Shown here piece after piece: positions 18,651 to 47,190 of a stretch of DNA of 48,435 bases. Position 1 is the stretch's first letter. The number at the start of each line of letters is the position of its first letter. The stretch comes from a virus: positions 1 through 48,435 of the IMG/VR virus record IMGVR_UViG_3300032242_002661. One strand, 5' to 3'. The position numbers and the translations under genes were made by a program. The notes under the pieces are model-generated. The model searched no databases, was not told the origin of the DNA, and was given only the letters and a program-made list of their open reading frames with translations.

Positions 18651-20024
18651 ATGTCATATTTTCGTTCGTATTTTGAGAAAAACAATACAATTGTTAAAAA
18701 TTCTCAAATAAACACAGCAAAAAACCCTACAACTGAAATTTTTTATGGAACAGGGTTTTCAAAGTTTATTTTCAAAATTGATTTTACAGATTTAATTAAC
18801 AAAGTTAGTGGTGCAGAATTAATATTAAATTCAGATACAAAACATACACTACATCTTACAAATACAATATTTGCTAGTGAATCTTTTCTTGGCGGCCAAA
18901 CAGGAACCGGAAAAGATAGAGCATCATCATTTGATTTAATTTTATTTAAATTAAATGAAAGTTGGGATGAAGGGGTTGGATATGATTACGAAGAAACTGG
19001 ATTTGATTATCGAAGCGGTAATTTTAGTGTTGTTAAAAAACCATCAAACTGGTATTTTAGAAATACTTTAGATAAGTGGGTTGAACCTGGAATTTACACA
19101 ACAGGTGCAACAATTTTGGATACTATACATTTTGACAATGGAAACGAAGATATTAATGTTGATGTGACTGACTATGTTAATAACATTTTAAATGGTGGTG
19201 AAGACTTCGGAATTGGTCTAGCTTTTTCATATCCATATGAAAATATAAACCCTGATTATGATAAATCAGTAGCTTTTTTTACAAAATATACACAAACATT
19301 TTTTGAACCATATGTTGAATCATTTTTTAATGATAGGATTGTAGATAATAGACAAAATTTTACTGTATCTGCACCTCAAAGTTTATATCTGTTTGTAAAC
19401 AAAAATGGTAATCCAGTTAATTTATATTCATTACCCTCAGTTGACATTTTAGATGCTAAATTAGCCCCGATTCCTAGTTTAACAGGTCTTACAACCACTC
19501 AGGTGAAAAAGGGCGTATATCGCGTTGATTTTGGTGTTAGCGGTGTAGACTGCTCAGGCAAAGCATTCTTTTATGATGTATGGAAAGATTTATACACCCA
19601 TTATGAAGTACAAATACCTGACGTAAAACAAAAATTCATACCTAAACCTCTTAATTCAGATTATCAAATAGGTGAAAATTTAAAAGATTTTGACAGATAT
19701 GTAATCCAGTTTTATGGCGTTCAACAAAACGAAAAAATCAAAAGAGGTGACGTGAGAAAAATTGTAGTAAATTTTCGTTCTACTAACACACCAACACCAA
19801 AAATTATGGATGAAGCGTACTATAGAATGTTTATCAAAGAAGGTAATGTTGATGTTTTAATTCATGACTGGACATTACTTGATATATCCAATGAAAATTT
19901 CTTTACTTTAAACACATCAAATTATATCCCTAGAGAATATTTTGTAGAATTAAAAGCACATGTTAATGGTGACGAGATTATTTATAAAGATATAATAAAG
20001 TTTGTAGTATTATCTGAAAAATAA
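18651..20024 (+). CDS. Virion protein with DNRLRE-like beta domain
   Basis: 457 residues. Residues about 30-230 have the pattern of a DNRLRE/CBM96-type beta sandwich: ISKAELILN-like strands, then LNESWDEGVGYDYEETGFDY, a Trp-rich SNWYFRNTLDKWVEPGIY, and INVDVTDYVNNILNGGEDFG with FGIGLAFSYP. Such domains in bacterial surface proteins bind carbohydrate. The C-terminal half holds repeated Ig-like strands, possibly two modules. A perfect TATTTATA box lies 11 bases before the ATG. It follows the spike gene by 24 bases. A baseplate, fibre-adaptor or glycan-binding role is inferred; no tail-protein signature beyond context. Confidence 0.55.
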   Translation: MSYFRSYFEKNNTIVKNSQINTAKNPTTEIFYGTGFSKFIFKIDFTDLINKVSGAELILNSDTKHTLHLTNTIFASESFLGGQTGTGKDRASSFDLILFKLNESWDEGVGYDYEETGFDYRSGNFSVVKKPSNWYFRNTLDKWVEPGIYTTGATILDTIHFDNGNEDINVDVTDYVNNILNGGEDFGIGLAFSYPYENINPDYDKSVAFFTKYTQTFFEPYVESFFNDRIVDNRQNFTVSAPQSLYLFVNKNGNPVNLYSLPSVDILDAKLAPIPSLTGLTTTQVKKGVYRVDFGVSGVDCSGKAFFYDVWKDLYTHYEVQIPDVKQKFIPKPLNSDYQIGENLKDFDRYVIQFYGVQQNEKIKRGDVRKIVVNFRSTNTPTPKIMDEAYYRMFIKEGNVDVLIHDWTLLDISNENFFTLNTSNYIPREYFVELKAHVNGDEIIYKDIIKFVVLSEK

Positions 20025-22880: not shown

Positions 22881-24656
22881 TTATCTTAAAGTATCAATTC
22901 CGTATGTAACGATACCTTTTACATCTATAACTGCGAAGTAACGGTTGTTTACCATTTTCTTTGCGTAACGAGTCATGATACCCTTGATAGGAGTCATGTT
23001 GAAAGGATTATACATAGTTGGAGTTAATTGTAATGGCACATATGGTGCGTATACATAACCAGCGTCTAATAATGACTTACCTTTATGTCCGATAAGGATT
23101 TTACCTGCAGGGAAGTAAGGGTCACGATAAACTTGGTAACGACCAGCTAAAGTACCGATTTTTTCAATACCCATGTTGTATTGATCTTGCTCCGGATGAG
23201 CGTTAGATACGTGGAAATATTCTAAATCATCGAATACTGCAGAAACTTCTGAAGAAACAACAATCCAGTTTGCACCACCACGTAATGTAGTTTTATGGAT
23301 TTGAGCAGACAATTGATTAATTTTAGTAATCAATGTTTGGTTCCAGTCTTTTTGAGTGTAACCTACAAATGAAGAACCTTGGTTACCATATTTCCACTCA
23401 TTGTAATCCCATTTAGCTTTCCATGCAGCGCCTTTTCTTAAGTCACGTAAAATTTCACGGTCAACTTCAGCAGCGATTTGCTCAGATAATAAAGCTGTTA
23501 ATTCAGCTTCAGCATCGATGTTATGGAACGCAGAAACGTCTTGAGCTAATTCTGGAGACCAGCTAGCTCTTAATTTTCTTTCAGTTACAGAAACAGTTAC
23601 TGATTCTAAATCGAAAGAAACTTCACCGATAGCATCTTCAAATTCTAAAGAAGCATACTCTCTCCAAGTGAACTTGAATTCAGAAGCTTGTAATGTAGAA
23701 CCTGTAACTTGATAATCAGTAAAACCTGCAGTAGAGCTATACTTTTGTAAATCAACTTGGATGTAAATTACACCATCTTGACCACAAATGTTATAGTATC
23801 CACCAGCATTTTGACCTACACCAAATGATTTTGCACCATACTCAACAATACCTTTACCATATTTTTGAGTTACGATGTTAATTGGTAAGTTGTCGCTTGC
23901 GCCAATACCTAAGAATGCTTGTAAATCAGCATCTGTAGTAGTAACTTGTAATGAAGCTAAAAATTCTTCAGAATCCATTTCATTACCACTAGGTCCGATT
24001 AATTTACCTTCACCACCTGAAGTGAAACCACTCATCTTGATTACAACGTATGACTTGGTCACACCAGTTGCGATTGAAGATGCAGTTGTGATAGCACCAT
24101 TGCTGAATGTAGCAAAACCGATTGAAGTACCTGTAGCAACTGCATAAGAACCTTTTGAATAATCAAAAAGACCTTGGTCGTTGTTATCATTTGCTTCGTA
24201 GAATCTATCATAAAGACTCTTAGTTTGACCTGTATAACCTAAATTAGGGTCAGTGTTCATTGTTACTCCGTTTACACCACCATAAGGAGTGTAATGGTCG
24301 TTAGTACCATTTGCTTTTCTATCTTGAATTTTTGGTATAAAATAGAATAATTTACCGATTGGTAAGTTCATAGCTTGTACAGACACGATGTCGTTAGCTA
24401 ATAATTTAGAGAATACACGACGAATAATAGGGAAAACTACAGTCTCGAAAGAACCTGAAGCATCAGATACTGCTGCTTCGTTGATTAAATAAGACGCTTG
24501 GTTTTCATATAATTGCGCGATGTTATCTTTTTGGTGACCGTCAAGACCTTCTAAAAAGCCTAAGTCATCCCATTTTCTGATGGTATCTTCTTTGATAACA
24601 CGTAAGTGCTTAAGACCGATGTTACCTACCATACCTGATTCTAATAATGCTCCCAT
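22881..24656 (-). CDS. Major capsid protein, T4 gp23-like
   Basis: 591 residues, longer than T4 gp23 (521). The N-terminal 60 residues, including GFLEGLDGHQKDNIAQLYEN, form a pro-segment ending in YLINE/AAVSDASGS. This is the position and form (L/I-x-E) at which T4 gp21 cuts gp23. The mature part starts with ETVVFPIIRRVFSKLLANDI, a HK97-fold capsid signature of T4-type phages, and later has ELAQDVSAFHNIDAEAELTA and the C-terminal FNMTPIKGIMTRYAKKMVNN. It follows the scaffold gene by 27 bases and is closed by a strong terminator, so it is probably the most abundantly made protein here. A 180-residue Gly/Ser/Thr-rich region at about 120-300 may be an inserted surface domain. Confidence 0.92.
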   Translation of the reverse strand: MGALLESGMVGNIGLKHLRVIKEDTIRKWDDLGFLEGLDGHQKDNIAQLYENQASYLINEAAVSDASGSFETVVFPIIRRVFSKLLANDIVSVQAMNLPIGKLFYFIPKIQDRKANGTNDHYTPYGGVNGVTMNTDPNLGYTGQTKSLYDRFYEANDNNDQGLFDYSKGSYAVATGTSIGFATFSNGAITTASSIATGVTKSYVVIKMSGFTSGGEGKLIGPSGNEMDSEEFLASLQVTTTDADLQAFLGIGASDNLPINIVTQKYGKGIVEYGAKSFGVGQNAGGYYNICGQDGVIYIQVDLQKYSSTAGFTDYQVTGSTLQASEFKFTWREYASLEFEDAIGEVSFDLESVTVSVTERKLRASWSPELAQDVSAFHNIDAEAELTALLSEQIAAEVDREILRDLRKGAAWKAKWDYNEWKYGNQGSSFVGYTQKDWNQTLITKINQLSAQIHKTTLRGGANWIVVSSEVSAVFDDLEYFHVSNAHPEQDQYNMGIEKIGTLAGRYQVYRDPYFPAGKILIGHKGKSLLDAGYVYAPYVPLQLTPTMYNPFNMTPIKGIMTRYAKKMVNNRYFAVIDVKGIVTYGIDTLR

Positions 24657-24683: not shown

Positions 24684-26192
24684 TTATTTTAATTTTCTCA
24701 TCATTTCCTTAATTCTCGTAAATTGTGGATTCTCATAAGCTTTTGACTCTGATAACATTTCTTGAGAAGAAGACGATTGAGGGGTGTTAGAGATTTTACC
24801 TGCTACAGATTCAGTAACTGTTGTTTTTGAACTTAATTCTGTAACAATTGTGTTATATAAGCCTTTAGACTCATTCATAGTAGAAACTGAATCAAATCTC
24901 TTTAAAATGCTCAATTTCTCTTGTTTTGTTGTTGAGTGTTCTGTGAAAATACGAGTGGCATATGCTAAATTTGCGTTGAATACAGCAACTTCATTTAATT
25001 TTTCTTTAAATAATACTAATGCTTTTTTGTATTCTGCATTTTGATTTCTCAAGTTTGCAACTTCTTCGTTTAATGAACCAGCTTTAGCTGTATTCATTCC
25101 ATTACTACCTGCTTTGAATTGTGTACCACCATTACCTTTCTTATGAAATGCAAAAGTGTGTGCAGATTCTTTAGGTTCAACTTTTTTAGGCTTACTTAAA
25201 CCTGGTAACGCAGTTTCTTTTGGTTCAACCTTTTTAGGTTTACTTAGTCCTGGTAATGCAGATTCTTTTGGCTCAACTTTTTTAGGTTTACTTAATCCAG
25301 GTAAAGCGCTTTCTTTTGGCTCTACTTTCTTAGGTTTACCTAAACCTGGTAACGCGTTTTCTTTTGGTTCAACCTTTTTAGGTTTACTTAAACCTGGTAA
25401 TGCAGATTCTTTAGGTTCCATATGCATAGAATCTTCTTCCTCTTCTTCTTCCATTTCAATTTCGTAGATAGTTTCTTCGTTTTCGTTCATAAAGCTATCG
25501 TCACCCTCAACTGTTGGGAAAGATTCATTCCAATCTTCATCCATTTCTGAATCGTCAGAATGTTCTTCGCTACCAAAGTCAGCGTGAGAAGCGTCATCGT
25601 CGTCACCATCTAATTTGATAATGAATTCGTCATCACCTGTTTCAAGTTCAACTTTGTTTCCGTCTTTTTTTACTACAATTCCATCTTCTGGTTTCATAGC
25701 TTTGAATATTTTAAGAACTTCATCATCTGAAGCACCTGTCATATCCATAACATCTTCGTCTTCATCTTCAGTATCGGTATCTGTATCTGAATCAAAATCA
25801 GTATCGTCAGATGTTTCATCGTCAGCACCGAAATCGTCGGTTTCAACGTCATCTGAATCTACATCATCTGTATCAGTTTCATCTGAATCTTCAGAATCGT
25901 CCGAGCCAAAGTCATCGCTTGTTTCGTCGTCGTTATCGAGGTCAGTATCATCTTCAGTGTCGTCTGCAGACTCATCTTCTGCTTCGTCATCTGACATATC
26001 TTTTTCTTCCTCTTCTTTAGGATCAGTTGCATCATCCGCATCTTCTTCCTCTTCTTCCAATGATTCTTTAAGCAAATCTTTTAGTTCTTCCTTCATAGTA
26101 GAAGCAAGTATACCTTTTGCATTTTGCTTTACAGCTTCTTCAAGTGTGTTGATTTGAAGTAACGCTTGTTCTAAAATTGATTTTTCGCTCAT
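24684..26192 (-). CDS. Acidic prohead scaffold protein (gp22 position)
   Basis: 502 residues. Residues about 40-165 are an extreme Asp/Glu/Ser/Thr run. A second acidic part and a Glu-rich block follow, then five copies of a 16-residue unit EPKESALPGLSKPKKV (about 258-340). The C-terminal 130 residues form a coiled coil (EEVANLRNQNAEYKKALVLF), then KLNEVAVFNANLAYATRIFT and L-S-E/S near the end. The last residues, FTRIKEMMRKLK, resemble the shared basic terminal peptide. Position between protease and capsid genes matches T4 gene 22. Scaffold proteins shape the prohead and are degraded by the protease; many L-x-E sites fit this. A TATTTATA box lies 25 bases upstream. Confidence 0.8.
   Translation of the reverse strand: MSEKSILEQALLQINTLEEAVKQNAKGILASTMKEELKDLLKESLEEEEEDADDATDPKEEEEKDMSDDEAEDESADDTEDDTDLDNDDETSDDFGSDDSEDSDETDTDDVDSDDVETDDFGADDETSDDTDFDSDTDTDTEDEDEDVMDMTGASDDEVLKIFKAMKPEDGIVVKKDGNKVELETGDDEFIIKLDGDDDDASHADFGSEEHSDDSEMDEDWNESFPTVEGDDSFMNENEETIYEIEMEEEEEEDSMHMEPKESALPGLSKPKKVEPKENALPGLGKPKKVEPKESALPGLSKPKKVEPKESALPGLSKPKKVEPKETALPGLSKPKKVEPKESAHTFAFHKKGNGGTQFKAGSNGMNTAKAGSLNEEVANLRNQNAEYKKALVLFKEKLNEVAVFNANLAYATRIFTEHSTTKQEKLSILKRFDSVSTMNESKGLYNTIVTELSSKTTVTESVAGKISNTPQSSSSQEMLSESKAYENPQFTRIKEMMRKLK
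25165..25412 (-). repeat. 48-bp tandem repeat in scaffold gene, about five copies
   Basis: Direct repeats with a 48-base period encode five copies of EPKESALPGLSKPKKV, the last changing into ESAHTFAFHKK. Copies differ by synonymous changes and by Ser/Asn/Thr at one site and Ser/Gly at another. Copy number probably varies between related phages. Confidence 0.75.
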
Positions 26193-26279: not shown

Positions 26280-26963
26280 TTATTTTGATAAAAACCTGTC
26301 TAAACCGCCCATTAATTTCTTCATTCTGTCGTTAACCATAGGTTTTTTTTCTTCAGATTCTTGGTATTGGTCTCTGTCTCCTAATTCAGGAAATATGTAT
26401 GCACCAGGCGTAGATGGTGAGGAAACTAAATCAAAACATACAAGCTCAAAATCTTCTTGTACAATATTTTGTCCTTTAATATTTTTTAATGAACCAACAC
26501 CACGTGAAGAAACACCTAGTGTGGCACCATTCATCAATAACATTGCAGCTTGGTCTCCTTTAGTTGAAACAATACCCATTTTTTTCCAACCCGGTGATGT
26601 AAATAATTTAATTTTACCCATTAACATTTTACCATCCCACCATGTTTCAAGTATTGAATGGGAAACTCTGTCTAGGTCAATAAGTGATGAAGAAGGATGA
26701 TTTAATTCATTTAATGCAGTACCTTTTTTAATCATTACTTGGTACTTATCATTTTCTCTTTTAAGTAAAGCTTCAGGATAAATTCTTCCGTTCTTATTAG
26801 GTGTATCGTATTTTTGTAAAACTGCAAAAAGGATAAGGTCTTGTGAAAAGTCCAAATCCTTTGCTTCTTTAAGTATACTTTTATTTTCTTCTGGTGAAAT
26901 ATGGCCGGCGTCAAATTCAATTAAAATTCCGGTACCGGTTTCTTTAGGCCCTAATATTTTCAT
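26280..26963 (-). CDS. Prohead maturation protease, T4 gp21-like
   Basis: 227 residues. The U9/S78-type protease pattern is present: DTPNKNGRIYPEALLKREND (about 53-72), ALNELNHPSSSLID with the catalytic His at 89, and MNGATLGVSSRGVGSLK with the catalytic Ser at 152 or 153. This enzyme cleaves capsid, scaffold and internal proteins after L/I-x-E during head maturation. Gene order terminase, portal, x, protease, scaffold, capsid is that of T4. The C-terminus MVNDRMKKLMGGLDRFLSK is helical and resembles the shared basic peptide. TATTTATA lies 16 bases before the ATG. Family call strong. Confidence 0.9.
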   Translation of the reverse strand: MKILGPKETGTGILIEFDAGHISPEENKSILKEAKDLDFSQDLILFAVLQKYDTPNKNGRIYPEALLKRENDKYQVMIKKGTALNELNHPSSSLIDLDRVSHSILETWWDGKMLMGKIKLFTSPGWKKMGIVSTKGDQAAMLLMNGATLGVSSRGVGSLKNIKGQNIVQEDFELVCFDLVSSPSTPGAYIFPELGDRDQYQESEEKKPMVNDRMKKLMGGLDRFLSK

Positions 26964-27001: not shown

Positions 27002-27427
27002 TTATTTCTTTGATTTGTGAAAATTGAATAAAGTTTTATCTGTTAGACCTTCATCTAATAGATTTTCAATAATATTTCTAATGTAATCTTTTGTATTTTT
27101 TGATTTAACATCAAACTGATTGTTGACGTATAAAGTAACTTCCAAATTCATAAAAGACCTTTTTTCCAATTTAATACCTTTTGTTCTAATGTCTAAATCA
27201 ACAATAGATTGTTGTTTGAACATAGGTGTTTTTAAATTATAAACAATTTCCTTTATTCTTCTTCTAGTTTTGTGAATTGTTGAATCAAAATCATCTGATT
27301 CATTTTCTGGTTGCAACCAAGAATTTAATTTAAGATATATGGTTTTTAAGTTTTTAAAATCTACGGTACCATAACCGATTTTTACATCATTGTATGTCCC
27401 TAATGGGATATACTTACCTGTTTTCAT
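27002..27427 (-). CDS. Unknown protein between protease and bS21 genes
   Basis: 141 residues, basic. It starts KTGKYIPLGTYNDVKIGYGT and contains RRRIKEIVYNLKTPMFKQQ and LEVTLYVNNQFDVK, a mixed alpha/beta plan with long strands. In T4 the corresponding slot holds small prohead-core genes. Here no similarity to them is visible, and the strand content is more like a folded structural protein. It lies 38 bases upstream of the protease gene, and the divergent bS21 gene starts 105 bases away. Function not recognised. Confidence 0.5.
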   Translation of the reverse strand: MKTGKYIPLGTYNDVKIGYGTVDFKNLKTIYLKLNSWLQPENESDDFDSTIHKTRRRIKEIVYNLKTPMFKQQSIVDLDIRTKGIKLEKRSFMNLEVTLYVNNQFDVKSKNTKDYIRNIIENLLDEGLTDKTLFNFHKSKK

Positions 27428-27508: not shown

Positions 27509-27516
27509 TATATTTG
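27509..27516 (+). promoter_or_regulatory. Bacteroidota-type -7 element before bS21
   Basis: TATATTTG matches TAnnTTTG, the -7 element of the Bacteroidota housekeeping sigma factor, 16 bases before the bS21 ATG. A clear TTTG at -33 is not visible, so the call is moderate. Confidence 0.5.
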
Positions 27517-27532
27517 TAATATAATTATTAAT

Positions 27533-27724
27533 ATGCTAATAGTCGATTTAAACAACGAAAAAAGTATTGAGACCGCACTAAGAACTTATAAAAATAAAGT
27601 TCAAAAAACAAAACAAGTTCAACAATTAAGAGAACGACAAGTTTTTACAAAACCATCTGTCAAGAAACGAACTGAAAAGTTAAAAGCGGTTTATGTACAA
27701 CAAAAAAGAAATGGACTTAGTTAA
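27533..27724 (+). CDS. rpsU: Ribosomal protein bS21 homologue
   Basis: 63 residues, basic, full length for bS21. It has the family pattern N-x-x-S-I-E-x-A-L-R-x-Y-K followed by QLRERQVFTKPSVKKRTEKL and KAVYVQQ. RQxFTKPSVxxR and KA-x-Y-x-Q are of Bacteroidota type rather than the RREFYEKP of proteobacteria. Tyr54, which in Bacteroidota ribosomes helps to hide the anti-Shine-Dalgarno sequence (as I recall), is present. It is the only plus-strand gene inside the leftward head cluster, with a TATATTTG promoter element 16 bases upstream and its own terminator. It probably exchanges into host ribosomes; known relatives occur in large phages. Confidence 0.87.
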   Translation: MLIVDLNNEKSIETALRTYKNKVQKTKQVQQLRERQVFTKPSVKKRTEKLKAVYVQQKRNGLS

Positions 27725-27735
27725 GTCCATTTTTT
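27711..27735. terminator. Bidirectional terminator holding both stop codons
   Basis: ATGGACTT-AGTT-AAGTCCAT is a perfect 8-bp stem with a 4-base loop. The plus strand continues with T5-6 and the minus strand with TTCTTTTTT. It ends both the bS21 gene and the convergent 27717 gene; both stop codons lie in the hairpin, and both proteins end in N-G-L-S/N. Confidence 0.8.
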
Positions 27736-28463
27736 AATTCTGTTAATCTGTAGTAGTTATACCTAGAAGGTGAAATTTGATTCACTTCTTTTTTTACATT
27801 ATCTAATTTATTTCTCAAATCTAAATCAGATGATTCATTCATTAAACTTTCAACTTGATTTAAAATTGATTCTTGTAATTCATTAGTTTTTACAATTAAA
27901 TCATCATGTGAAATTGATAATATATTTTTTAATTCTTCTTTTTGTGATTCCGATAATGTGTTGGAATATAATACATTAAAGTTATTTGCTAGTATTGCAT
28001 TTAATAAAGTTTCATTAGGAACTAGTGTGGTTTCTTTTGATTCTAAAATTTCTTTTTTAGTTGTTAAATGCTCAACTAATTTCTTTTTTGCAATAATTTT
28101 ATTTTCAATATTTGATAAAGAATCTTTTTCAGATAAAATGTCCAAAGACTCATATAGTTCATTAGGCACAATTTCAATATTACTTAATTTAGTGTCTAAA
28201 GATTCACAAAATAAATTTAATTTATTCCAATTTCCTATTGGTTCACCAAAATACGTACTTAAACCCTCAACATATAACTTTGCAATTTCTTTATCTTCAA
28301 TATATTTGTTTTCAATTTCTTCATAGAACAAATACATTTCTTTAAAATCTTTATTTTCTTTTATTATTGATAATATATTTTTTATCTCAGCTTTATTTTC
28401 CTTTGCGTAAGATTCAGTTAATTTATTTAATAACTTAGTTTTAAGTGCACCAAATTTCTTCAT
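27717..28463 (-). CDS. Prohead-core-position helical protein
   Basis: 248 residues, almost wholly helical and rich in Lys, Glu, Asn and Leu. It opens KKFGALKTKLLNKLTESYAK and continues with an ILSIIKENKDFKEMYLFYEE block; later ELQESILNQVESLMNESSD recalls the shared E-S-I-x-x-x-x-x-L-M peptide. Its position directly after the portal gene (2 bases between) matches T4 genes 67/68, whose products form the prohead core. Homologues with the same beginning occur, as I recall, in other T4-type phages of marine bacteria. The stop codon lies in the shared hairpin with bS21. Core role inferred. Confidence 0.55.
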   Translation of the reverse strand: MKKFGALKTKLLNKLTESYAKENKAEIKNILSIIKENKDFKEMYLFYEEIENKYIEDKEIAKLYVEGLSTYFGEPIGNWNKLNLFCESLDTKLSNIEIVPNELYESLDILSEKDSLSNIENKIIAKKKLVEHLTTKKEILESKETTLVPNETLLNAILANNFNVLYSNTLSESQKEELKNILSISHDDLIVKTNELQESILNQVESLMNESSDLDLRNKLDNVKKEVNQISPSRYNYYRLTELKNGLN

Positions 28464-28465
28464 TT

Positions 28466-30358
28466 TTAATCGTTTAATATTTCTTTTAATTTATTTTCTA
28501 TTTCATAAATATTCTGCTGAGCTTTATCCATATTAAATAAATCATTCAAATCTAATTCTTCTTCACCGAGCATACCTAATATTTTAGATTTTTTTGATTT
28601 TTTACCTAAAGATTCACTTAATGGTTCCGGCCCACCCGCTGGTGCTCCACCTGCTGGTGCACCTCCTGGAGGAGCAGATTCACCACCTACCGCTGGTTCA
28701 GGTCCACCACCTAATGCACCACCACCTAATGCTCCCATTCCACCAGCTTCTCCACCACCCTCAGGTGATGCGCTTGCCATGGCTTTTTCTCTTTCTTCTT
28801 CAGGGATACCATATTTTTTATCAACTTCATCAAATACACCTGAACGTTTAATTACATTTTGTGTATTTGTTAATTCAAATCCTAATGCACGTTCTAAACG
28901 TTGTTGTTGTAAATCTAATAATACTTCAGCGTCACTCATACCCAAAATATTCTTTTTAGCCCATGTATGTGATACAGGTAAAATACCCATTTGTGACTGG
29001 TCAGATGTTGCATCTTTATACAAAGTAACTTTTTCTTTCCAAGATTCAATTTTTAATAAATCTGATTGAGTCGATGGATTACTTAATGATAATTGAAAAT
29101 TATTTAATTCATCTTCCATACCTAAAAGGTATAAATGAATTAATGCAATTTTATTTAATTCTTGAATTAGAGATTTTTGTATTTTATTAATTGTTCTTGC
29201 AAAACGAATATCCATCAAAGCAAGATTTTTACCATCTCCAACAACTTCTTCAAATCCTAAAAATGCTTTAGGAATACGTAGAGCCGCCAACATTTTCTTT
29301 TGGATATATTCAATATCTGCAATTTCACCTAAGTTCTGTGCACCTGGTAAAGTTTCGATAGGACTATTTTGTGATGGGTCACGAACTGGTATGAAATAAT
29401 CCTGGTCTACTGCCATTTGATTATATCTCATATCCACTTGTCCGTTCTTTGGATCTGCAATTTGTTCTCTTTTAAATTTATTAGCTACACGTTGTACATA
29501 TGGCTCGATATCTTTATCATCCATATTACCAACAAATACTTTAAACACACGTCTTTCTGGTGCTCTTGATGTTCTATAAATCAACATAGCGTCTTCAGCT
29601 AAAAGTAATTGTTTCCAAATACGTCTAACCTTATCTAACATAGATGTACCATAAGGAAGTTTTCTATCGTCACCTAATAATCTGAAGTGAGCAATTTCCC
29701 ATGCTTGGAATTCCATATCTTTATTTTTCCAAGTAAATCTTAATTCTCTACTTGGCATTTTCTTATCTAAAACTTGTCCATTGTTTCTAGCTGCAGCACC
29801 TTCTAATCTTTCAATTTCAATATTTGGTAATTGTTGACAACCAACAATACCTTTTTCTGGATCAATTTTTAAATAAACAAAGTTATCCCCATACTTACAA
29901 ACACCTCGAGCCCACATTACCAAATTAGTATTAACATCTAATTTGTTTTCAAATAAATCTACTAAAATGTTTTTAATTCTGTCAGAATCTGAAAATATTG
30001 TTAAGATATCACCTTTTTCAGATTGAGTTGTTGATTCTTCTGAATAGATATCTAATGCAGCTGATATCTCTGGTGTAAATTCCATAGATTCAAAATCGTA
30101 ATATGCTGCCAATCTATTGGGTTCATAATAAACTGATTGATTATAAAGAGATTGGTCCAATTTGGACCATTTGTCTGCAATGTATGAGCTTTGTTGAGCT
30201 TGTAACATTGCTTTTTCGAATTCATTCTTATCACCAGTTTTTAATAATTCATCTTTACTAAAATTAAATGATGGTGTTTCTTCCTGTTTTACAACACCAG
30301 GATAACCAAACATTCTGGTTAATTTTTGAAATACAGTTAAATTTTGATTATTTGCCAT
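28466..30358 (-). CDS. Portal protein, T4 gp20-like
   Basis: 630 residues. Diagnostic stretches are YDFESMEFTPEISAALDIYS (about 86-105), LVMWARGVCKYGDNFVYLKI (about 146-165), WEIAHFRLLGDDRKLPYGTS, IWKQLLLAEDAMLIYRTSRA and PERRVFKVFVGNM, then KKMLAALRIPKAFLGFEE, all typical of T4 gp20. Twelve copies form the DNA entry ring. The C-terminus after about 545 is a Gly/Ala/Pro spacer (GGGALGGGPEPAVGG), then SLGKKSKKSKILGMLGEEEL and an acidic helix, an addition not present in T4. CATAAATA on the plus strand (TATTTATG in coding sense) lies 4 bases before the ATG. Family call strong. Confidence 0.92.
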   Translation of the reverse strand: MANNQNLTVFQKLTRMFGYPGVVKQEETPSFNFSKDELLKTGDKNEFEKAMLQAQQSSYIADKWSKLDQSLYNQSVYYEPNRLAAYYDFESMEFTPEISAALDIYSEESTTQSEKGDILTIFSDSDRIKNILVDLFENKLDVNTNLVMWARGVCKYGDNFVYLKIDPEKGIVGCQQLPNIEIERLEGAAARNNGQVLDKKMPSRELRFTWKNKDMEFQAWEIAHFRLLGDDRKLPYGTSMLDKVRRIWKQLLLAEDAMLIYRTSRAPERRVFKVFVGNMDDKDIEPYVQRVANKFKREQIADPKNGQVDMRYNQMAVDQDYFIPVRDPSQNSPIETLPGAQNLGEIADIEYIQKKMLAALRIPKAFLGFEEVVGDGKNLALMDIRFARTINKIQKSLIQELNKIALIHLYLLGMEDELNNFQLSLSNPSTQSDLLKIESWKEKVTLYKDATSDQSQMGILPVSHTWAKKNILGMSDAEVLLDLQQQRLERALGFELTNTQNVIKRSGVFDEVDKKYGIPEEEREKAMASASPEGGGEAGGMGALGGGALGGGPEPAVGGESAPPGGAPAGGAPAGGPEPLSESLGKKSKKSKILGMLGEEELDLNDLFNMDKAQQNIYEIENKLKEILND

Positions 30359-30412: not shown

Positions 30413-32188
30413 CTATCTTGGTTTACCAAATAACCAATTATATTCTTTATATGCTTCTTTTTGCACTGTCATCTGTTCGGGTCTCATTCTTATTGGATTA
30501 CCATCCATACCCATTGAACTAATTTGGTCAAATACTGTACCATAAGAATAAAATGATTTTTGTGGTTCGTATGTTCTTTCAGATAAAGTCCATGATTCCA
30601 TCATTGCAACATTTTGAGCGGTACTTCTTTGTAATTGATTAAAACAAATATCACCTGCATACAACGCCATTGACATACTCATTATAGCATCGTCATGTGC
30701 CCCTTTCATGTGGTCTGGTCTACCATTTATATAAACAAATGTATTCAGTTCATTTAAAAGACGAGTAGAACGAACTATAAATCCTTTTCTTAATTGTTCT
30801 TCAAAAGCAGCAACAATTTGTGTCCTTTTGTTATTGAAATTTAAACCTGGTATTTTATCCATGGCCTTCCTATTATACTCCCAAATATTTTGAGTATTAA
30901 CACCATCAATAAATAAATTTTTATAGTTCATTTCTTGCAACTTTCTAGATGTTGCTATACCCATACCACCGGTAATATCAATAACAATAAATGCTTCATA
31001 CATCAATCCCCATTTATAACAAATTGATGCTAAGTCATCTGGTGGTATTTTGCCAATATATTCTAAGACTTGTTCTCTATCGTCAAAATCAATAATATTA
31101 ATTGAAGAAAAATCTTCACTATCACCCCTACTAACATCCACGCCCATAATATAACGATGTCCAGCAATTGGTTCTTTCCATTGCCAAAGAGTACCTTGCA
31201 TATACTTTTCAGTAGGTACTTTAACCATATTTTTTGCGATATTTTCCTGAACATCACCAGGAATTACCCCGTCACCTGAACCTAAAAAGTCACATTCCAA
31301 TTCTTGAGCTATCTTACGTCTATCGTAAAGGAATTTTTTTGACATTTTTTCAAACCATGATGAAAATGGTTTATATCCATTTTCAATATGTTTCACATAA
31401 TCCTTAAGCGGTAAATCAGTTCTAACAACCTCATCATCGTTATATTGTTCTCTGTTTAACATATAATGAAGAATATCACTACATTTAACCCAACATAAAT
31501 CTTTAGTATATCTAGGGTCTTTAAACCATCTTAAATCAGTAATATGAAAATCATTCATTCCACGAATTGCTTGGTCATAAACACCATAATAAATTGGGTC
31601 ATAACCATTTGGTGTTGAGATTAAAATAATCTTACCACCTGTTGATAATGATGCCATAGAGGCTGCCCAGAAGTCTTCACCAGCTTCAATATACGCGGCC
31701 TCATCAAATACTAGTATTGTTGGTGTATAACCACGTAACGCATCGGGCGAGGTTGCAACGGCTTTGACCTCACATCCATTATTTAATCTAAATCTACTTT
31801 CAGAGTTTTTGTCTGGTGAAAAACCTACATTAATCCAATCTGGCCATTGTTCTAAAAAGTGTCTTACTTTATTAGCCATCTCCACCGCAGTATCACGTTT
31901 GTTTGCAATAAGAAGAACCCTTTCAGGGTTTTCAGGTTTAGCTAATTGTAATTTCTTAGATAACCATGCTGCAGTAACAGTTGTTACACCAGCTTGTCTA
32001 TATTTTCTTGTAATATTTTCATTATACTTTTCATAATCCTCAATTAATTGTACTTGGTCTTCAAATAAGTCCATTGGTACATATTTTTTTTGGGTATTAT
32101 CAAAAGTTTGTAGATATGTTCTAAAGGCGTAAGGTGTATCCTTCATAATCTTTGCCAACTCCTTAAGTTGTTCTATTCTTGAATTCAT
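30413..32188 (-). CDS. terL: Large terminase, T4 gp17-like packaging ATPase-nuclease
   Basis: 591 residues. ATPase: a Walker A-like KYRQAGVTT (62-70), Walker B TILVFDEAAYI (157-167) and ISTPNG coupling motif (190-195). Nuclease: MGVDVSRGDSEDFS with Asp351, VIDITGGMG with Asp404 and HDDAIMSM near 507 as the third acidic site. The P-loop lacks the usual Lys before Thr (G-V-T-T); a Lys two residues before the Arg-Gln may serve, as in the K-x-R-Q-x-G-x-S/T loops of several terminases. It cuts and pumps DNA through the portal. TATTTATA lies 5 bases before the ATG, directly after the U-tract of the upstream gene's terminator. Confidence 0.93.
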   Translation of the reverse strand: MNSRIEQLKELAKIMKDTPYAFRTYLQTFDNTQKKYVPMDLFEDQVQLIEDYEKYNENITRKYRQAGVTTVTAAWLSKKLQLAKPENPERVLLIANKRDTAVEMANKVRHFLEQWPDWINVGFSPDKNSESRFRLNNGCEVKAVATSPDALRGYTPTILVFDEAAYIEAGEDFWAASMASLSTGGKIILISTPNGYDPIYYGVYDQAIRGMNDFHITDLRWFKDPRYTKDLCWVKCSDILHYMLNREQYNDDEVVRTDLPLKDYVKHIENGYKPFSSWFEKMSKKFLYDRRKIAQELECDFLGSGDGVIPGDVQENIAKNMVKVPTEKYMQGTLWQWKEPIAGHRYIMGVDVSRGDSEDFSSINIIDFDDREQVLEYIGKIPPDDLASICYKWGLMYEAFIVIDITGGMGIATSRKLQEMNYKNLFIDGVNTQNIWEYNRKAMDKIPGLNFNNKRTQIVAAFEEQLRKGFIVRSTRLLNELNTFVYINGRPDHMKGAHDDAIMSMSMALYAGDICFNQLQRSTAQNVAMMESWTLSERTYEPQKSFYSYGTVFDQISSMGMDGNPIRMRPEQMTVQKEAYKEYNWLFGKPR

Positions 32189-37837: not shown

Positions 37838-38089
37838 TTAGATTGTTCTAACCTTTTTGTATTTAAAGGCTTTGGTAATATTTTCATTTAAAAACTTACC
37901 TTGAGACTTAGCAAGTCTAAACTTAGTGAAAATTGTTGATGGAACGTTTTGGTACTCATAAATGCTACCGTTAACAAACGCTACTCTTAAATTTTCTTTT
38001 AAAGCGTCGTAAGATGCTTTAGTCAAGCTAGTGGAACGGATTGAAACTTCAATCATGCGACCACTGATTTTTTCTTTTTTTACTGACAT
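37838..38089 (-). CDS. KTSC-domain protein, copy 1
   Basis: 83 residues. It has the same plan as the 37492 gene: IEVSIRSTSLTKASYDALKE, LRVAFVNGSIYEYQNVPSTI, then FTKFRLAKSQGKFLNENITK. Identity between the two copies is highest in the NGSIY and SQGKF-x-NE blocks. They are separated by a terminator, so each may be controlled separately. AATTTATA, a weak late-box-like sequence, lies just before the ATG. Function unknown, possibly RNA-related. Confidence 0.72.
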   Translation of the reverse strand: MSVKKEKISGRMIEVSIRSTSLTKASYDALKENLRVAFVNGSIYEYQNVPSTIFTKFRLAKSQGKFLNENITKAFKYKKVRTI

Positions 38090-38179: not shown

Positions 38180-38545
38180 TTAGTTAAGGGAGATTAAACG
38201 CTCAAGATTTTTCTTCTTATCAATTGGTAATGAAATAGTTAGGACACCATTCTCAACTTTTCCTTCGATGTTTTTTTCTTGCACATCTTCAGGAATGTCA
38301 TAGGCTTTTACAAATGAGCCAATAAATTGATGATTCTTATCGCCTTCATTTTTCTCATAGGTAATTTTTAATACACCTTCCTTAATTGAGATTTTTAAAT
38401 CTTCCTTAGCTAAACCAGGAACACTAATCGAAACAACATAACCAGTTTCATCTTTTTGGATATTAGTTTCTGGTGTTCTAAAAAATTTAGATTCGAATGC
38501 ACTATCGAATCCTTGAAAAAATGGGTCTTTAAATAATCGTATCAT
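38180..38545 (-). CDS. Hsp20 small heat-shock chaperone
   Basis: 121 residues, short for the family (usually 140-160). The alpha-crystallin domain is visible: TNIQKDETGYVVSISVPGLA, KEDLKISIKEGVLKITYEKN, then VKAYDIPEDVQEKNIEGKVE and NGVLTISLPI, with the A-x-x-x-N-G-V-L motif as VENGVLTISLP. The N-terminal arm is brief (RLFKDPFFQGFDSAF). Small Hsps hold unfolding proteins; several T4-type phages carry one. It is divergent from the ClpC-like gene, 153 bases away, so chaperone and unfoldase may be expressed from one control region. The C-terminal I-x-I/V motif is not obvious. Confidence 0.85.
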   Translation of the reverse strand: MIRLFKDPFFQGFDSAFESKFFRTPETNIQKDETGYVVSISVPGLAKEDLKISIKEGVLKITYEKNEGDKNHQFIGSFVKAYDIPEDVQEKNIEGKVENGVLTISLPIDKKKNLERLISLN

Positions 38546-38698: not shown

Positions 38699-40720
38699 AT
38701 GTCAGTAGATTTTTTTGATGAGAATTCATCATCCCCAAACACACGTAGAACAAAGAAAGGTTCTACAACACCGATATTAGATAACTTCTCTCGTGACCTA
38801 ATTAAAATGGCTGAAGAGGGTAAGATTGATCCTATTGTTGGTAGAGATAAAGAAGTTAAGAGAATTGCACAGATTCTTTCTAGAAAAAAGAAAAACAATG
38901 CTGTTATTGTTGGTGATGCTGGTGTAGGTAAATCTGCACTGGTTGAAAAACTTGCGTTATTAATTCACAAAGGTGAATGTCCAACTAATTTATTAGACAA
39001 AAGATTAGTTTCATTAGATTTAACTGCGCTTGTTGCTGGTACAAAATACAGAGGACAATTTGAAGAAAGAATAAAAGCAATATTAAACGAATTACAAGAA
39101 ATTACAAATGTAATTGTGTTTATTGATGAATTACATACTATGGTTGGTGCTGGTAATGCTAGTGGTGCAATGGATGCTGCGAATATTTTAAAACCTGCAT
39201 TAGCAAGAGGTGAAATTCAATGTATTGGCGCCACAACGTTAGATGAATTTAAAAAACATATTGAAAAGGATGGTGCATTAGTTCGACGTTTTCAAAAAAT
39301 TATTTTAAATGAACCAACACAAGATGAAACAATTGAAATTCTTGTAAATTTAAAACCATCCTATGAAAATTATCATAAAGTATCTTACGAAGATGGCGTA
39401 ATAGAAAACATTGTAAAACTTTCACATCGTTACATTACCGATAAACAATTTCCTGATAAGGCAATTGATATTCTTGATGAATTAGGGTCAGAAAAAAAAG
39501 TATCTACCAAAATTCCTGAAATTATTGAAAAATTAAAAAAGGATTCTGATGATATTAAAATACAAAAATTACAAGTTGTAAAAAATCAAGATTACGAACA
39601 AGCGGCTAGATTACGTGATGAAGAGAAAAAAATTATTGAAAAATTAGAAGCTGAAAAAATTAAGTGGGCTGAAAAACAAAAGAATAACAAAATTCCAATC
39701 ATTGTTGAAGATGTATACGAAATTATATCAGAAATGACTGGTGTTCCAATTACTAAATTAGATTCAAAAGAAACACAAAAACTTTTGAATATGGAAGATG
39801 TTTTATCAGCTAAAGTAATTGGACAAGATGAAGCAATTAAAACAATATCAAAAGCAATAAGAAGAAATCGAGTTGGTATCAAAGAAGGTAACAAACCAAT
39901 TGGTTCATTTATTTTTATGGGTTCAACTGGTGTAGGTAAAACATTCTTAGCTAAATCAATTGCTGAAATTTTATTTGGTGACCCTGATAAAATCATCAGA
40001 GTTGATATGAGTGAGTTTATGGAAAAACATGCTGTATCAAAATTAATTGGTTCACCTCCAGGATATGTTGGTTATGATGAAGGTGGTCAATTAACTGAAC
40101 GTGTTAAAAACAATCCCTTTTCTGTAATTTTATTTGATGAAATTGAAAAAGCTCATAAAGATGTTTTTAATATTTTATTGCAAATTTTAGATGAAGGTCA
40201 TCTCACAGATTCATTTGGTAGAAAAATTAATTTTACTAATACAATTGTAATTTTAACATCAAATGTTGGTGCAAAAAAAGTATCTGAATTTGGTGGAGGC
40301 GTAGGATTCTCAACATCATCTTCAGAACAACAAAAATATGAAGTTAGAAAATCAATGATTCAAAAATCATTAAAACAACAATTCAATCCTGAATTTTTAA
40401 ATCGTATTGATGATGTGATTTTATTTAATGCTTTAAATGATGAAACATTAAATAAAATTATTAATAATGAAATGGCAAAATTAGTTAAACGTTTAACTGA
40501 TAAAAATTACAACATATCATTTGACAAGTCCGTATACACAAAAATTTACGAACTGAACAAACAAGAAGAATATGGTGCAAGACCATTAAAGAGAATTATA
40601 CAAAATTTTATTGAAGATTTTTTGAGTGAAGAAATTTTAAAAAGCAATATTGTTGAAAAAATTGCAACAACAATCAAATGCAAAGACGGAAAATTAACAA
40701 TTCATAAAAAAAATGCTTAA
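38699..40720 (+). CDS. clpC: ClpC-like AAA+ unfoldase
   Basis: 673 residues. It has no Clp-N domain, so is shorter than host ClpC (about 840). D1: Walker A GDAGVGKS (72-79), Walker B VIVFIDELHT (138-147), Arg finger region. UVR-like middle NQDYEQAARLRDEEKKIIEK (about 296-315). D2: GSTGVGKT (408-415), ILFDEIEKAH (477-486) and SPPGYVGYDEGG. The loop FGGGVGFSTSS carries VGF (535-537), the tripeptide used to dock on ClpP. The protein could join host ClpP. A host-type promoter precedes it. Family call strong; the ClpP link is inferred. Confidence 0.92.
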   Translation: MSVDFFDENSSSPNTRRTKKGSTTPILDNFSRDLIKMAEEGKIDPIVGRDKEVKRIAQILSRKKKNNAVIVGDAGVGKSALVEKLALLIHKGECPTNLLDKRLVSLDLTALVAGTKYRGQFEERIKAILNELQEITNVIVFIDELHTMVGAGNASGAMDAANILKPALARGEIQCIGATTLDEFKKHIEKDGALVRRFQKIILNEPTQDETIEILVNLKPSYENYHKVSYEDGVIENIVKLSHRYITDKQFPDKAIDILDELGSEKKVSTKIPEIIEKLKKDSDDIKIQKLQVVKNQDYEQAARLRDEEKKIIEKLEAEKIKWAEKQKNNKIPIIVEDVYEIISEMTGVPITKLDSKETQKLLNMEDVLSAKVIGQDEAIKTISKAIRRNRVGIKEGNKPIGSFIFMGSTGVGKTFLAKSIAEILFGDPDKIIRVDMSEFMEKHAVSKLIGSPPGYVGYDEGGQLTERVKNNPFSVILFDEIEKAHKDVFNILLQILDEGHLTDSFGRKINFTNTIVILTSNVGAKKVSEFGGGVGFSTSSSEQQKYEVRKSMIQKSLKQQFNPEFLNRIDDVILFNALNDETLNKIINNEMAKLVKRLTDKNYNISFDKSVYTKIYELNKQEEYGARPLKRIIQNFIEDFLSEEILKSNIVEKIATTIKCKDGKLTIHKKNA

Positions 40721-41577: not shown

Positions 41578-41820
41578 ATGAGTCAATTTATTGCATCTTA
41601 TTTCAAAACACCAGAAAAAAAATCATCGATGAAATTTCATTCTAATCTACATAAAAATCAATGGGCAGTTTATCCTTTGCCTTTTGCTTATTTATATTTT
41701 GAAACCTGTCACCCAGACTCACATATTCCTTTATTAGAAAATAAAATATGTGGAGTTTATCTGTCCTTTAATTTTTTAAAATGGACTTGGAACATTGGAT
41801 TATATAAACCTATTAAATGA
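41578..41820 (+). CDS. Unknown 80-residue protein within the RNA-repair cassette
   Basis: 80 residues, aromatic-rich: SQFIASYFKTPEKKSSMKFH, NQWAVYPLPFAYLYFETCHP and LSFNFLKWTWNIGLYK. It starts directly after the kinase stop and overlaps the ligase start (ATGA), so is tightly co-translated with both. No signal peptide, no clear membrane helix, no known motif. Its place between kinase and ligase suggests a part in the repair, for example substrate recognition or inhibition of a host nuclease, which is only a guess. Confidence 0.55.
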   Translation: MSQFIASYFKTPEKKSSMKFHSNLHKNQWAVYPLPFAYLYFETCHPDSHIPLLENKICGVYLSFNFLKWTWNIGLYKPIK

Positions 41821-42851
41821 TGATAGAAATTTTAGAAAAATATTATACTGATGGTTTGTTACATAAACAAACACATCCGAAATACGATTTGACTATATGG
41901 AATTATTCACCTAAAGTTCAATACGAGAGATTATGGGATGACATTACAATTCAGTGTCGTGGATTAGTTACTAATTCAAAAGGCAGCATTGTTGCTAGAC
42001 CATTTAAAAAATTCTTTAATTACGATGAACACAAACCAGAAGATATTCCAAATGAAGAGTATGTTGTTTATGAAAAAATGGATGGATCTTTAGGAATCCT
42101 TTTCAATTATGAAGATGAATGGATTTTAGCAACACGTGGTTCATTTACATCACCACAAGCAATCAAAGGAAAAGAAATTCTTGATAAACACGACATCAGT
42201 GCATGGAGAAAAGATAATACATATTTGTTTGAAATTATCTATCCTGAAAATAGAATTGTGGTGGATTATAAAGGTGAAGAAAAATTAGTTGTTCTTGCAG
42301 CAATCCATACTGAAACAGGTGAAGAAATACCTGATAGTAGTTTATTTTGGACACAAGAATCTGGATTTGAAGTTGTTACCACATATAAAACATGGGGAGA
42401 ATCATATGACTTACTTAAAGAAGAAATAAATAAAGATAGAGAAGGATATGTAATTAAATTTAAGAATGGTTTTCGTATGAAAATCAAAGGAGATGAATAT
42501 AAAAGATTACATCACATTTTAACAAACATATCAAATAGAGATATTTGGGAACACTTAAAAGATAATAAATCATTTGAAGATTTAATTAAAGACGTACCCG
42601 ATGAATTTTATGATTGGGTTAAAAAAACTGCATCTGATTTAAATGAACAATTTGAAAATATTAGAACTAACATAGAAAACGATTTCAAAGAATTAGTAAA
42701 TAAAAAAGAATTTGCTGAAAAAATTAAAGATAATCCAAATAAATCATTTTTATTTAAAAGACTTGATTCATATTCATATCAATTACATGAAATGATTTGG
42801 AATTCAATATATCCTACATACTCAAAACCATTTAAAAAAGATGAAAATTAA
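41817..42851 (+). CDS. RNA ligase (T4 Rnl1-like)
   Basis: 344 residues. Nucleotidyltransferase motifs: I, YEKMDGSLG with the adenylated Lys87; RG-S-F at 107-110 and FEIIYPENRIVVDY (138-151) for III and IIIa; EGYVIKF (209-215) for IV; MKIKGDEY (221-228) for V. The C-terminal helical part (about 230-344) resembles the Rnl1 C-domain. It joins RNA 5' phosphate and 3' hydroxyl ends. In T4 the equivalent repairs tRNA cleaved by host anticodon nucleases. It overlaps the cREC gene by 11 bases. Either of two adjacent ATGs may be the start. Confidence 0.87.
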   Translation: MMIEILEKYYTDGLLHKQTHPKYDLTIWNYSPKVQYERLWDDITIQCRGLVTNSKGSIVARPFKKFFNYDEHKPEDIPNEEYVVYEKMDGSLGILFNYEDEWILATRGSFTSPQAIKGKEILDKHDISAWRKDNTYLFEIIYPENRIVVDYKGEEKLVVLAAIHTETGEEIPDSSLFWTQESGFEVVTTYKTWGESYDLLKEEINKDREGYVIKFKNGFRMKIKGDEYKRLHHILTNISNRDIWEHLKDNKSFEDLIKDVPDEFYDWVKKTASDLNEQFENIRTNIENDFKELVNKKEFAEKIKDNPNKSFLFKRLDSYSYQLHEMIWNSIYPTYSKPFKKDEN

Positions 42852-45431: not shown

Positions 45432-46249
45432 TATTTGTTATGCAAACCAATCGATATTTGATTGAAATTCCTTATTGGGTCTCTATCTAATTTTAATGTA
45501 AAAAATTTAAAATCCCTCAAAATACCAAATTTTAGAGTTGTAAAATATGCATTTGATTTTGGAAATGAGATACCTCCTAAATCATCTTTACCTTGATATC
45601 TAATTTCTTCATGCCCAAAACCAATCATTCCATGTACCCCTAATTTACCAAATCTTTTACCACCACCAAGATATAATGTACCTTGTTTGATAAAGTCAAT
45701 TTTACTTAATGGGAAATCAACATTATTAATCTGTCCGTATGGAAAATATTGATTATGGTCTATTTCATAAGACATTGTATAATCTAAAATAAAATATCCT
45801 TTATTGTCACCAATTGCACCCCAAAAAGATGCTTGATTATTATTTGTATGACCTAATCCAAATGTATAATATGTATCTTTTTCAACCGTATCTCTTTTTC
45901 CATTTTCATAGATACGAATTTCACTTCTGTGTCTCCAACCGTAATTATCATTCCAAATGTAAGGATATGGTTGATACCAACCCCAAGTACCATAATATAA
46001 TCCATATGGATTTATTATTGTTGATCTGTAAGTTCTTACTAATGGTTGACCTTCAAATCTATCACCAGGTCTGATTGGTGCCGTTTGAGTTCTCCATTCG
46101 CTTACTCCTCCACCTCTTTGAGAAGGTACTGATGGTTGTACTCTTGGAGCTGATTGTGATGGAGAGCTTCCACCATTTTGTCTCCAGTGTGATACTTGTC
46201 CAAACATTAAAGTTGGAACTAGTAATAATAAAGATAAAATTGTTTTCAT
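45431..46249 (-). CDS. Secreted outer-membrane-barrel-like protein
   Basis: 272 residues. Signal peptide MKTILSLLLLVPTLMFG/Q. A Ser/Pro/Gln/Arg-rich spacer (to about 70) is followed by a Tyr/Trp/Gly-rich part (GLYYGTWGWYQPYPYIWNDN) and alternating beta strands to the end (YTFGLGHTNNNQASFWGAIG, KFGILRDFKFFTLKLDRD, QISIGLHNK). This suggests a small outer-membrane barrel or surface beta protein. Both ends overlap neighbours by one base. Together with the 43857 gene it is the secreted half of the operon. Function unknown; modification of the host surface is inferred. Confidence 0.6.
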   Translation of the reverse strand: MKTILSLLLLVPTLMFGQVSHWRQNGGSSPSQSAPRVQPSVPSQRGGGVSEWRTQTAPIRPGDRFEGQPLVRTYRSTIINPYGLYYGTWGWYQPYPYIWNDNYGWRHRSEIRIYENGKRDTVEKDTYYTFGLGHTNNNQASFWGAIGDNKGYFILDYTMSYEIDHNQYFPYGQINNVDFPLSKIDFIKQGTLYLGGGKRFGKLGVHGMIGFGHEEIRYQGKDDLGGISFPKSNAYFTTLKFGILRDFKFFTLKLDRDPIRNFNQISIGLHNK

Positions 46250-47178
46250 TATTTTTCTATTTTAATTTTAATTTTTGGTTCATATCCTTTAGGTAAAAGA
46301 TTTTCCATTCCAGTAAATTCACCATGTTTTTTATCCAAACGTATTGTGATAGTTTTTTTGTCACAATTCATCATAATCTGACCAACAGTTTGCATATGAA
46401 ACTTGTTGTCAGTTCTGTAAGGATTTAAAAATGGATTTTTTTTGTACTTTTTCTTTAATAAATCTAAAACATCTTGATCTGTTTTAGCATTTTGTAAATT
46501 TTCTTTTGCTAATTCTAATCTACTATGTGACGATTCTTCTTTGGGTCCACTTTGGTATCCCAAATCTTTATGGAATATACCATGATTAGTTCTTACCACA
46601 ACCTTTTTATTACCTTTTAATTTTTTAATTACAGGTACATCTACACTTGAATGTTCTATGATGTAAATGTTTTTACCATCACTTATAATTGATTCCCCTG
46701 ATACCCCTTTGAATTTTGAACTACCATCACCTCTAGTCGATATTAAAACTTTAATTGCATCTCGTAAATTCTTTTGACATAATACTTGTCTAATTTTTGC
46801 ACCATCAGTGGCATGTTTAGGACTCATTTTTTTATCTTTATTATGAGCCTTTTCTTCTTTAGCCGCTTTAACTTTGTCACTTTCTTTTTCATCATCATTT
46901 ACCATTAATGATGAATTAACTATACCTATTCCAAATTCGTTAATACCTTCAGACCAATCTGTATCAACATCATGCCAATAAGCTATTTCCACATTATCTA
47001 ATACTTCATGAACTAATTCCATTTCAGCAGTATAACCCCTATCTCTATTTTTGGCTAAAACAATACCATCATTTAATCTGACACCCGCAACGGTACATTC
47101 GCTAAGTGTTTTTTTCTCAACAACATCACCAACTAATTTTTTAAGTTGTGATTCTGTAATAACAATTGAATTTCCCAT
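46249..47178 (-). CDS. Ntn hydrolase (C45/AAT-like) with N-terminal tag
   Basis: 309 residues. The first 27 residues, including SIVITESQLKKLVGDVV, carry the shared ITE-[SND]-Q peptide and end in TLSE. The presumed nucleophile is Cys28, followed by TVAGVRLNDGIVLAKNRDRG (C-T-x(4-9)-DG-x(4)-RN-x-D), then a W-x-E-G-I-N-E-F-G-I-G-I-V-N-S-S block and VVRTNHGIF, the pattern of acyl-transferring and amide-cleaving Ntn enzymes (isopenicillin-N acyltransferase/C45 type). The propeptide must be removed to expose Cys28; L-S-E/C is also a prohead-protease-like site. TATTTATT lies 4 bases before the ATG. Substrate unknown. Confidence 0.7.
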   Translation of the reverse strand: MGNSIVITESQLKKLVGDVVEKKTLSECTVAGVRLNDGIVLAKNRDRGYTAEMELVHEVLDNVEIAYWHDVDTDWSEGINEFGIGIVNSSLMVNDDEKESDKVKAAKEEKAHNKDKKMSPKHATDGAKIRQVLCQKNLRDAIKVLISTRGDGSSKFKGVSGESIISDGKNIYIIEHSSVDVPVIKKLKGNKKVVVRTNHGIFHKDLGYQSGPKEESSHSRLELAKENLQNAKTDQDVLDLLKKKYKKNPFLNPYRTDNKFHMQTVGQIMMNCDKKTITIRLDKKHGEFTGMENLLPKGYEPKIKIKIEK

Positions 47179-47182
47179 AATA

Positions 47183-47190
47183 AATAAATA
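47183..47190 (-). promoter_or_regulatory. Late-box variant TATTTATT before the Ntn hydrolase gene
   Basis: One mismatch, 4 bases before the ATG at 47178, between the radical SAM stop and the hydrolase start. Confidence 0.5.

Follow-up and report, generated by a model that had tools for sequence, protein, structure and literature searches.

A phage bS21 gene of Bacteroidota type without the extended Shine-Dalgarno sequence of Flavobacterium rpsU and with a terminator-like hairpin shared with its convergent neighbour

The stretch of DNA analyzed (the window), a viral record, spans 48,435 bases, and a small gene for ribosomal protein bS21 was located within its head gene cluster. The genes and features concerned were as follows.

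27533-27724, plus strand: phage bS21 gene, 63 aa, with Tyr54 (Pfam, NCBIfam and PDB matches; tree)
27509-27516, plus strand: TATATTTG, putative Bacteroidota-type -7 promoter box, 16 nt before the bS21 ATG (conservation; consensus from PMC6847099)
27706-27735, plus strand, read on both strands: palindromic terminator-like hairpin holding the stop codons of bS21 and CN (scan, folding, covariation)
27717-28463, minus strand: CN gene, the convergent neighbour, 248 aa, overlapping bS21 by 8 nt, C-terminus NGLN
27002-27427, minus strand: gene for a 141-aa protein, divergent from bS21
26280-26963, minus strand: prohead protease (Peptidase_S77)
22881-24656, minus strand: major head protein (MCP)
28466-30358, minus strand: portal protein
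30413-32188, minus strand: terminase large subunit (TerL)
38699-40720, plus strand: ClpC-like AAA+ unfoldase lacking the N domain; the box TATGTTTG precedes its ATG by 20 nt

The window protein exceeded the curated cut-offs of two bS21 family profiles, PF01165 of Pfam (48.3 bits where 27 are required, E 8e-13) and TIGR00030 of NCBIfam (37 bits against 28.95). Its best match among solved structures was 7jil (E 2.8e-11), named as the F. johnsoniae ribosome in PMC9723584, and Tyr54 supplied the aromatic residue 54 of Bacteroidia-type bS21. As the first-pass annotation had noticed, the gene stood alone on the opposite strand inside the head cluster. It lay on the plus strand between portal and prohead protease, amid the minus-strand genes for MCP, prohead protease, portal and TerL; an opposite-strand bS21 within this region is the gene position described by Chen et al. 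2022 (PMC9723584). No tRNAs were found in the window, and an Rfam search of it gave no match.

Relatives were collected by a viral-contig scan, from which the 80 closest loci were kept (71-92% identity), and by a second scan with the portal as query, from which 80 loci were kept. Among the portal-scan loci with at least 1.5 kb downstream (n = 52), a bS21 match was present in 50 and the CN gene in all 52, and bS21 was seen in 10 of the 28 shorter ones. The two scans together yielded 78 loci for comparison that were distinct when protein and leader were considered jointly. Since tblastn of bacterial genomes with the phage bS21 protein found no relative encoded there, F. johnsoniae bS21 was used as the query for bacteria. 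A tree was built from 158 bS21 proteins. Its 39 distinct phage proteins, that of the window included, formed a single clade (100/98), and a 100/90 branch set this clade, together with Flavobacteriaceae, apart from E. coli and B. subtilis bS21. The tree, with its 64 columns, did not single out the nearest bacterial group. Judged from these proteins, the phage copies are one clade within Bacteroidia-type bS21, and a placement outside Bacteroidota was not seen. The initial claim of a Bacteroidota-type phage bS21 that keeps Tyr54 was thus borne out by profiles, tree and residue 54, which was Tyr in 77 and His in one of the 78 distinct phage loci. The bS21 of a 735-kb phage record (L253, LR756501.1, positions 1501-1677) was placed beside the window's clade (96/93).

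Two relatives (L343 and L346) carried the portal, CN and 141-aa genes in the same order and no bS21, with CN and the 141-aa gene flanking the empty site. This arrangement would be compatible with gain of bS21 in an ancestor or with losses in these two. Of the earlier view that bS21 was a separately acquired gene, its discreteness and its absence from otherwise syntenic relatives stood. The CN protein gave no match in Pfam, PHROGs or PDB sequences, nor to annotated phages by tblastn. Its AlphaFold model (mean pLDDT 75.7 and pTM 0.53, a middling confidence) was mostly helical, and Foldseek with this model matched uncharacterised phage proteins only.

The differences from host bS21 were evaluated between 67 full-length phage proteins and a bacterial set of 85 distinct proteins whose residue 54 is aromatic. 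Eleven positions were nearly non-overlapping between the two sets, and every one of them lay in residues 7-30 (chance of all 11 falling there 2.4e-4, with positions assumed independent). Near-fixed divergence from the hosts was present and was confined to this part. Divergence of the N-terminal helix of phage bS21 was reported by Chen et al. (PMC9723584); the confinement of the near-fixed differences to residues 7-30 was, provisionally, not found in published accounts. The KPSV core was conserved, whereas the full FTKPSV noted at first was local, the relatives having mostly V in place of T.

The terminator scan revealed that the palindrome at 27706-27735 was terminator-like on both strands, with folding z values of -5.7 and -4.0. 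In the covariation analysis, 99.5% of the cells were paired and three pairs had changed on both sides, compared with at most 61% pairing in slid controls. A terminator of bS21's own had been proposed; the terminator-like hairpin is present, but it is common to the convergent CN gene and overlaps both stop codons, and the proposal was rejected in favour of a shared one. The two genes overlapped by 8 nt in 71 and by 4 nt in 10 of 81 loci. Because one palindrome overlaps both stops, the bS21 and CN proteins both end in NGL followed by S, N or D, the sole exception being one CN that ends in NGL. The normalised synonymous entropy of bS21 was 0.13 in codons 59-63 versus 0.47 in codons 2-58. Among the 78 loci, a stable hairpin together with the NGL tail was found in 72, neither in 5, and an NGL-type tail with a mismatched hairpin in one (L318), a pattern to be read as an association and not as 78 independent events because the loci are related. 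The CN proteins of the two relatives lacking bS21 were without the NGL ending. The simplest reading would be that the NGL tail is held by a nucleic-acid constraint and not by ribosome function; Chen et al. took the C-terminal conservation as ribosomal (PMC9723584).

Of 42 distinct regions upstream of bS21, 38 contained the putative -7 box TAnnTTTG, in most cases at a distance of 16-19 nt from the ATG, in agreement with the proposal that the gene has its own promoter. Among the 78 combined loci the box was found in 58, and several of the more distant phages did not have it. Transcription in F. johnsoniae begins 4-5 nt past the -7 box (consensus and spacing from PMC6847099), so leaders of about 11-15 nt are predicted (about 11-12 nt for the window bS21). 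Only two genes of the window, those for bS21 and the ClpC-like protein, had the box within 40 nt upstream, where chance alone would give 1.5; this count proves nothing by itself, so that the case is carried by conservation. Taken together, the upstream and downstream elements support bS21 as a probable separate transcription unit. A sigma-70 style promoter scan was uninformative (94 sites versus 99 in shuffles). The candidate late promoter element ACACCATAA before the divergent gene was rejected, with one other exact copy in the window only, inside the TerL gene. Separately, the 40-nt regions upstream of 52 window genes contained 15 occurrences of TATTTAT against 0.64 expected, for example before 1600-3675 (minus), 18651-20024 (plus), 24684-26192 (minus) and the prohead protease (26280-26963), portal (28466-30358) and TerL (30413-32188) genes, all three on the minus strand. 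It was also enriched in 11 relatives (5-7 versus 0.1-0.35), and is possibly a phage promoter element or a leader signal.

In F. johnsoniae, bS21 is autoregulated, in that ribosomes without bS21 act through an extended Shine-Dalgarno sequence (SD) on rpsU, and Y54A as well as loss of the C-terminal part of bS21 lead to more rpsU translation (PMC9976891). A duplex energy with the anti-SD below -13 kcal/mol was adopted as the criterion of an extended SD. For these energies the 16S tail was taken to be GGAUCACCUCCUUUCU. An extended SD was detected in 80/80 Flavobacterium-type loci and in 45 of 91 loci of a wider Bacteroidota sample, within which 15 of the 44 bacteria with an aromatic residue 54 had one. 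In the 78 phage loci none was found (0/78); the strongest phage site reached -9.7 kcal/mol (L026), and the window gene, at 0.8 kcal/mol, was without the extended SD of autoregulated Flavobacteriales rpsU. The phage bS21 gene would therefore lie outside the rpsU autoregulatory circuit. It appears from these sites to be uncoupled from the Flavobacterium feedback, yet it retains Tyr54, the residue exerting that feedback. The actual host may not use rpsU feedback, given that a strong rpsU SD was seen in only 15 of those 44 bacteria.

SD tetramers preceded 2 of 53 window genes against 2.06 expected by shuffling, and the statement that the phage genes lack SDs held. The argument built on it, that anti-SD hiding by phage bS21 shifts translation toward phage mRNAs, was not supported and was rejected as a cause of phage-mRNA preference: host mRNAs are likewise without SDs (PMC6847099, PMC9976891), so anti-SD hiding alone cannot favour phage mRNAs. 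Any such preference would have to originate in the N-terminal helix, which has diverged, in line with what Chen et al. proposed. The predicted specific loser from continued anti-SD hiding is host rpsU, through continued repression.

Of the 18 related records searched, 14 had the gene for the ClpC-like protein; where a record reached far enough, the gene lay about 10-11 kb from bS21. The -7 box was present in 15/15 of its upstream regions, window counted. The protein has a VGF motif in a position like that of a ClpP loop, and the motif may be one. McNutt et al. 2023 speculated that phages of this kind might encode a protease targeting host bS21 (PMC9976891), for which this unfoldase is a candidate. 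Close to it were genes for an Hsp20 chaperone (38180-38545, minus) and a KTSC-domain protein (37838-38089, minus). Elsewhere in the window, a T4 Rnl1-type RNA ligase (41817-42851, plus) and a Radical SAM protein with SPASM domain (46249-48414, minus), adjoining a weak acyl-transferase (AAT) match, were observed.

The core finding was published in 2022, and the window bS21 belongs to the kind described by Chen et al. (PMC9723584), who reported bS21-encoding Bacteroidetes phages, the gene position and the conserved aromatic residue 54, and already held the idea of bS21 substitution into host ribosomes. Their phages (clades a-e) have the same reverse-strand bS21 between TerL, portal, protease and MCP genes, the same residue 54 and N-terminal divergence, the same bS21 clade apart from bacterial bS21 and the same adjacent CN gene on the opposite strand, and no feature was found that sets the window apart from them. 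CN was undetected in their two outgroup phages (PMC9723584), whereas relatives with CN but no bS21 were seen here. Their text makes no mention of a terminator, a promoter or autoregulation (PMC9723584). The missing extended SD, the shared covarying terminator, the -7 box and the CN-bearing relatives without bS21 are provisionally regarded as new relative to that work. Host rpsU of F. johnsoniae (McNutt et al. 2023, PMC9976891) shares the protein family, Tyr54 and the KPSV core, but has an extended SD below -13 kcal/mol, whereas the phage gene has none and its N-terminal half is changed. The bS21 of Pelagibacter phage HTVC008M (Mizuno et al. 2019, PMC6375957) is also phage-borne, with an alphaproteobacterial relationship where that of the window is to Bacteroidota.

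The leading explanation, at about even odds, is that phage bS21 replaces host bS21 during infection, keeps the rpsU feedback off and escapes this feedback itself. The phage protein would take the place of host bS21 on 30S subunits, and its C-terminal half with Tyr54 would go on hiding the 16S rRNA 3' tail, so that the ribosome would still count as complete and the SD-dependent feedback on host rpsU would stay off. The phage bS21 mRNA would begin near the host-type -7 box and have a very short leader without an SD, which would allow the protein to be made outside host feedback, and transcription would stop at the two-way terminator common to the convergent head-cluster gene. Initiation may be altered by the change in the N-terminal helix, which Chen et al. 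located at the mRNA binding site (PMC9723584). In favour of this explanation are the family and tree placement, residue 54 and the 11 near-fixed differences, the extended SD seen in Flavobacterium and in none of the phage loci, the Y54A and truncation effects in F. johnsoniae (PMC9976891), the entry of a phage bS21 into E. coli ribosomes (PMC6375957), the transcription of bS21 with structural genes in lake samples (PMC9723584), the conserved -7 box and the covarying hairpin. The SD-like site retained ahead of the huge-phage bS21 gene (L253, -12.1 kcal/mol) counts against it, as do the absence of the -7 box from several more distant phages and the chance that the true host does without the feedback. 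Entry of a phage bS21 into E. coli ribosomes was found for HTVC008M, and translation was lowered to ~5% (PMC6375957), which would also be compatible with a poorly fitting or inhibitory subunit. It is conceivable, if unlikely, that the phage exploits the feedback itself: host rpsU would stay repressed while the SD-less phage mRNA escapes, ribosomes would drift to phage bS21 without destruction of host bS21, and the ClpC-like unfoldase may speed the exchange.

The redirection proposed by Chen et al., in which ribosomes that have taken up phage bS21 would prefer phage mRNAs late in infection by virtue of its diverged N-terminal helix, is a tentative possibility that we hold to be somewhat improbable. 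The confinement of host differences to residues 7-30 suits it, as does late co-expression, bS21 being transcribed together with structural genes in lake samples (PMC9723584); however, no sequence feature marking phage mRNAs was found, SDs being missing on both sides, and the TATTTAT upstream of phage genes might act either as promoter or as leader signal. A plain supply of bS21, which would top up or repair bS21-poor ribosomes as host expression fails and leave mRNA choice unchanged, is quite doubtful: the near-fixed N-terminal differences exceed the needs of plain replacement, even though the C-terminal half and KPSV core are conserved and this is one small gene, with no other ribosomal proteins seen in the window. 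A non-ribosomal role, such as virion packaging (raised as a possibility by Chen et al., PMC9723584) or head assembly linked to the CN protein, would suit a gene that lies within the head cluster and overlaps CN, but is very improbable with residue 54 and the KPSV core staying conserved and with CN retained in L343 and L346 without bS21.

Phage carriage of bS21 is currently explained by a preferential translation of phage mRNA. Replacement of host bS21 with the rpsU feedback kept off would be a sharper alternative, based on the extended SD that 80/80 Flavobacterium loci have and the phage loci lack, and one testable in F. johnsoniae, where rpsU reporters as well as Y54A and truncation strains are available. 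The findings on the shared hairpin are also a warning that conservation of a phage C-terminus need not mean ribosomal function.
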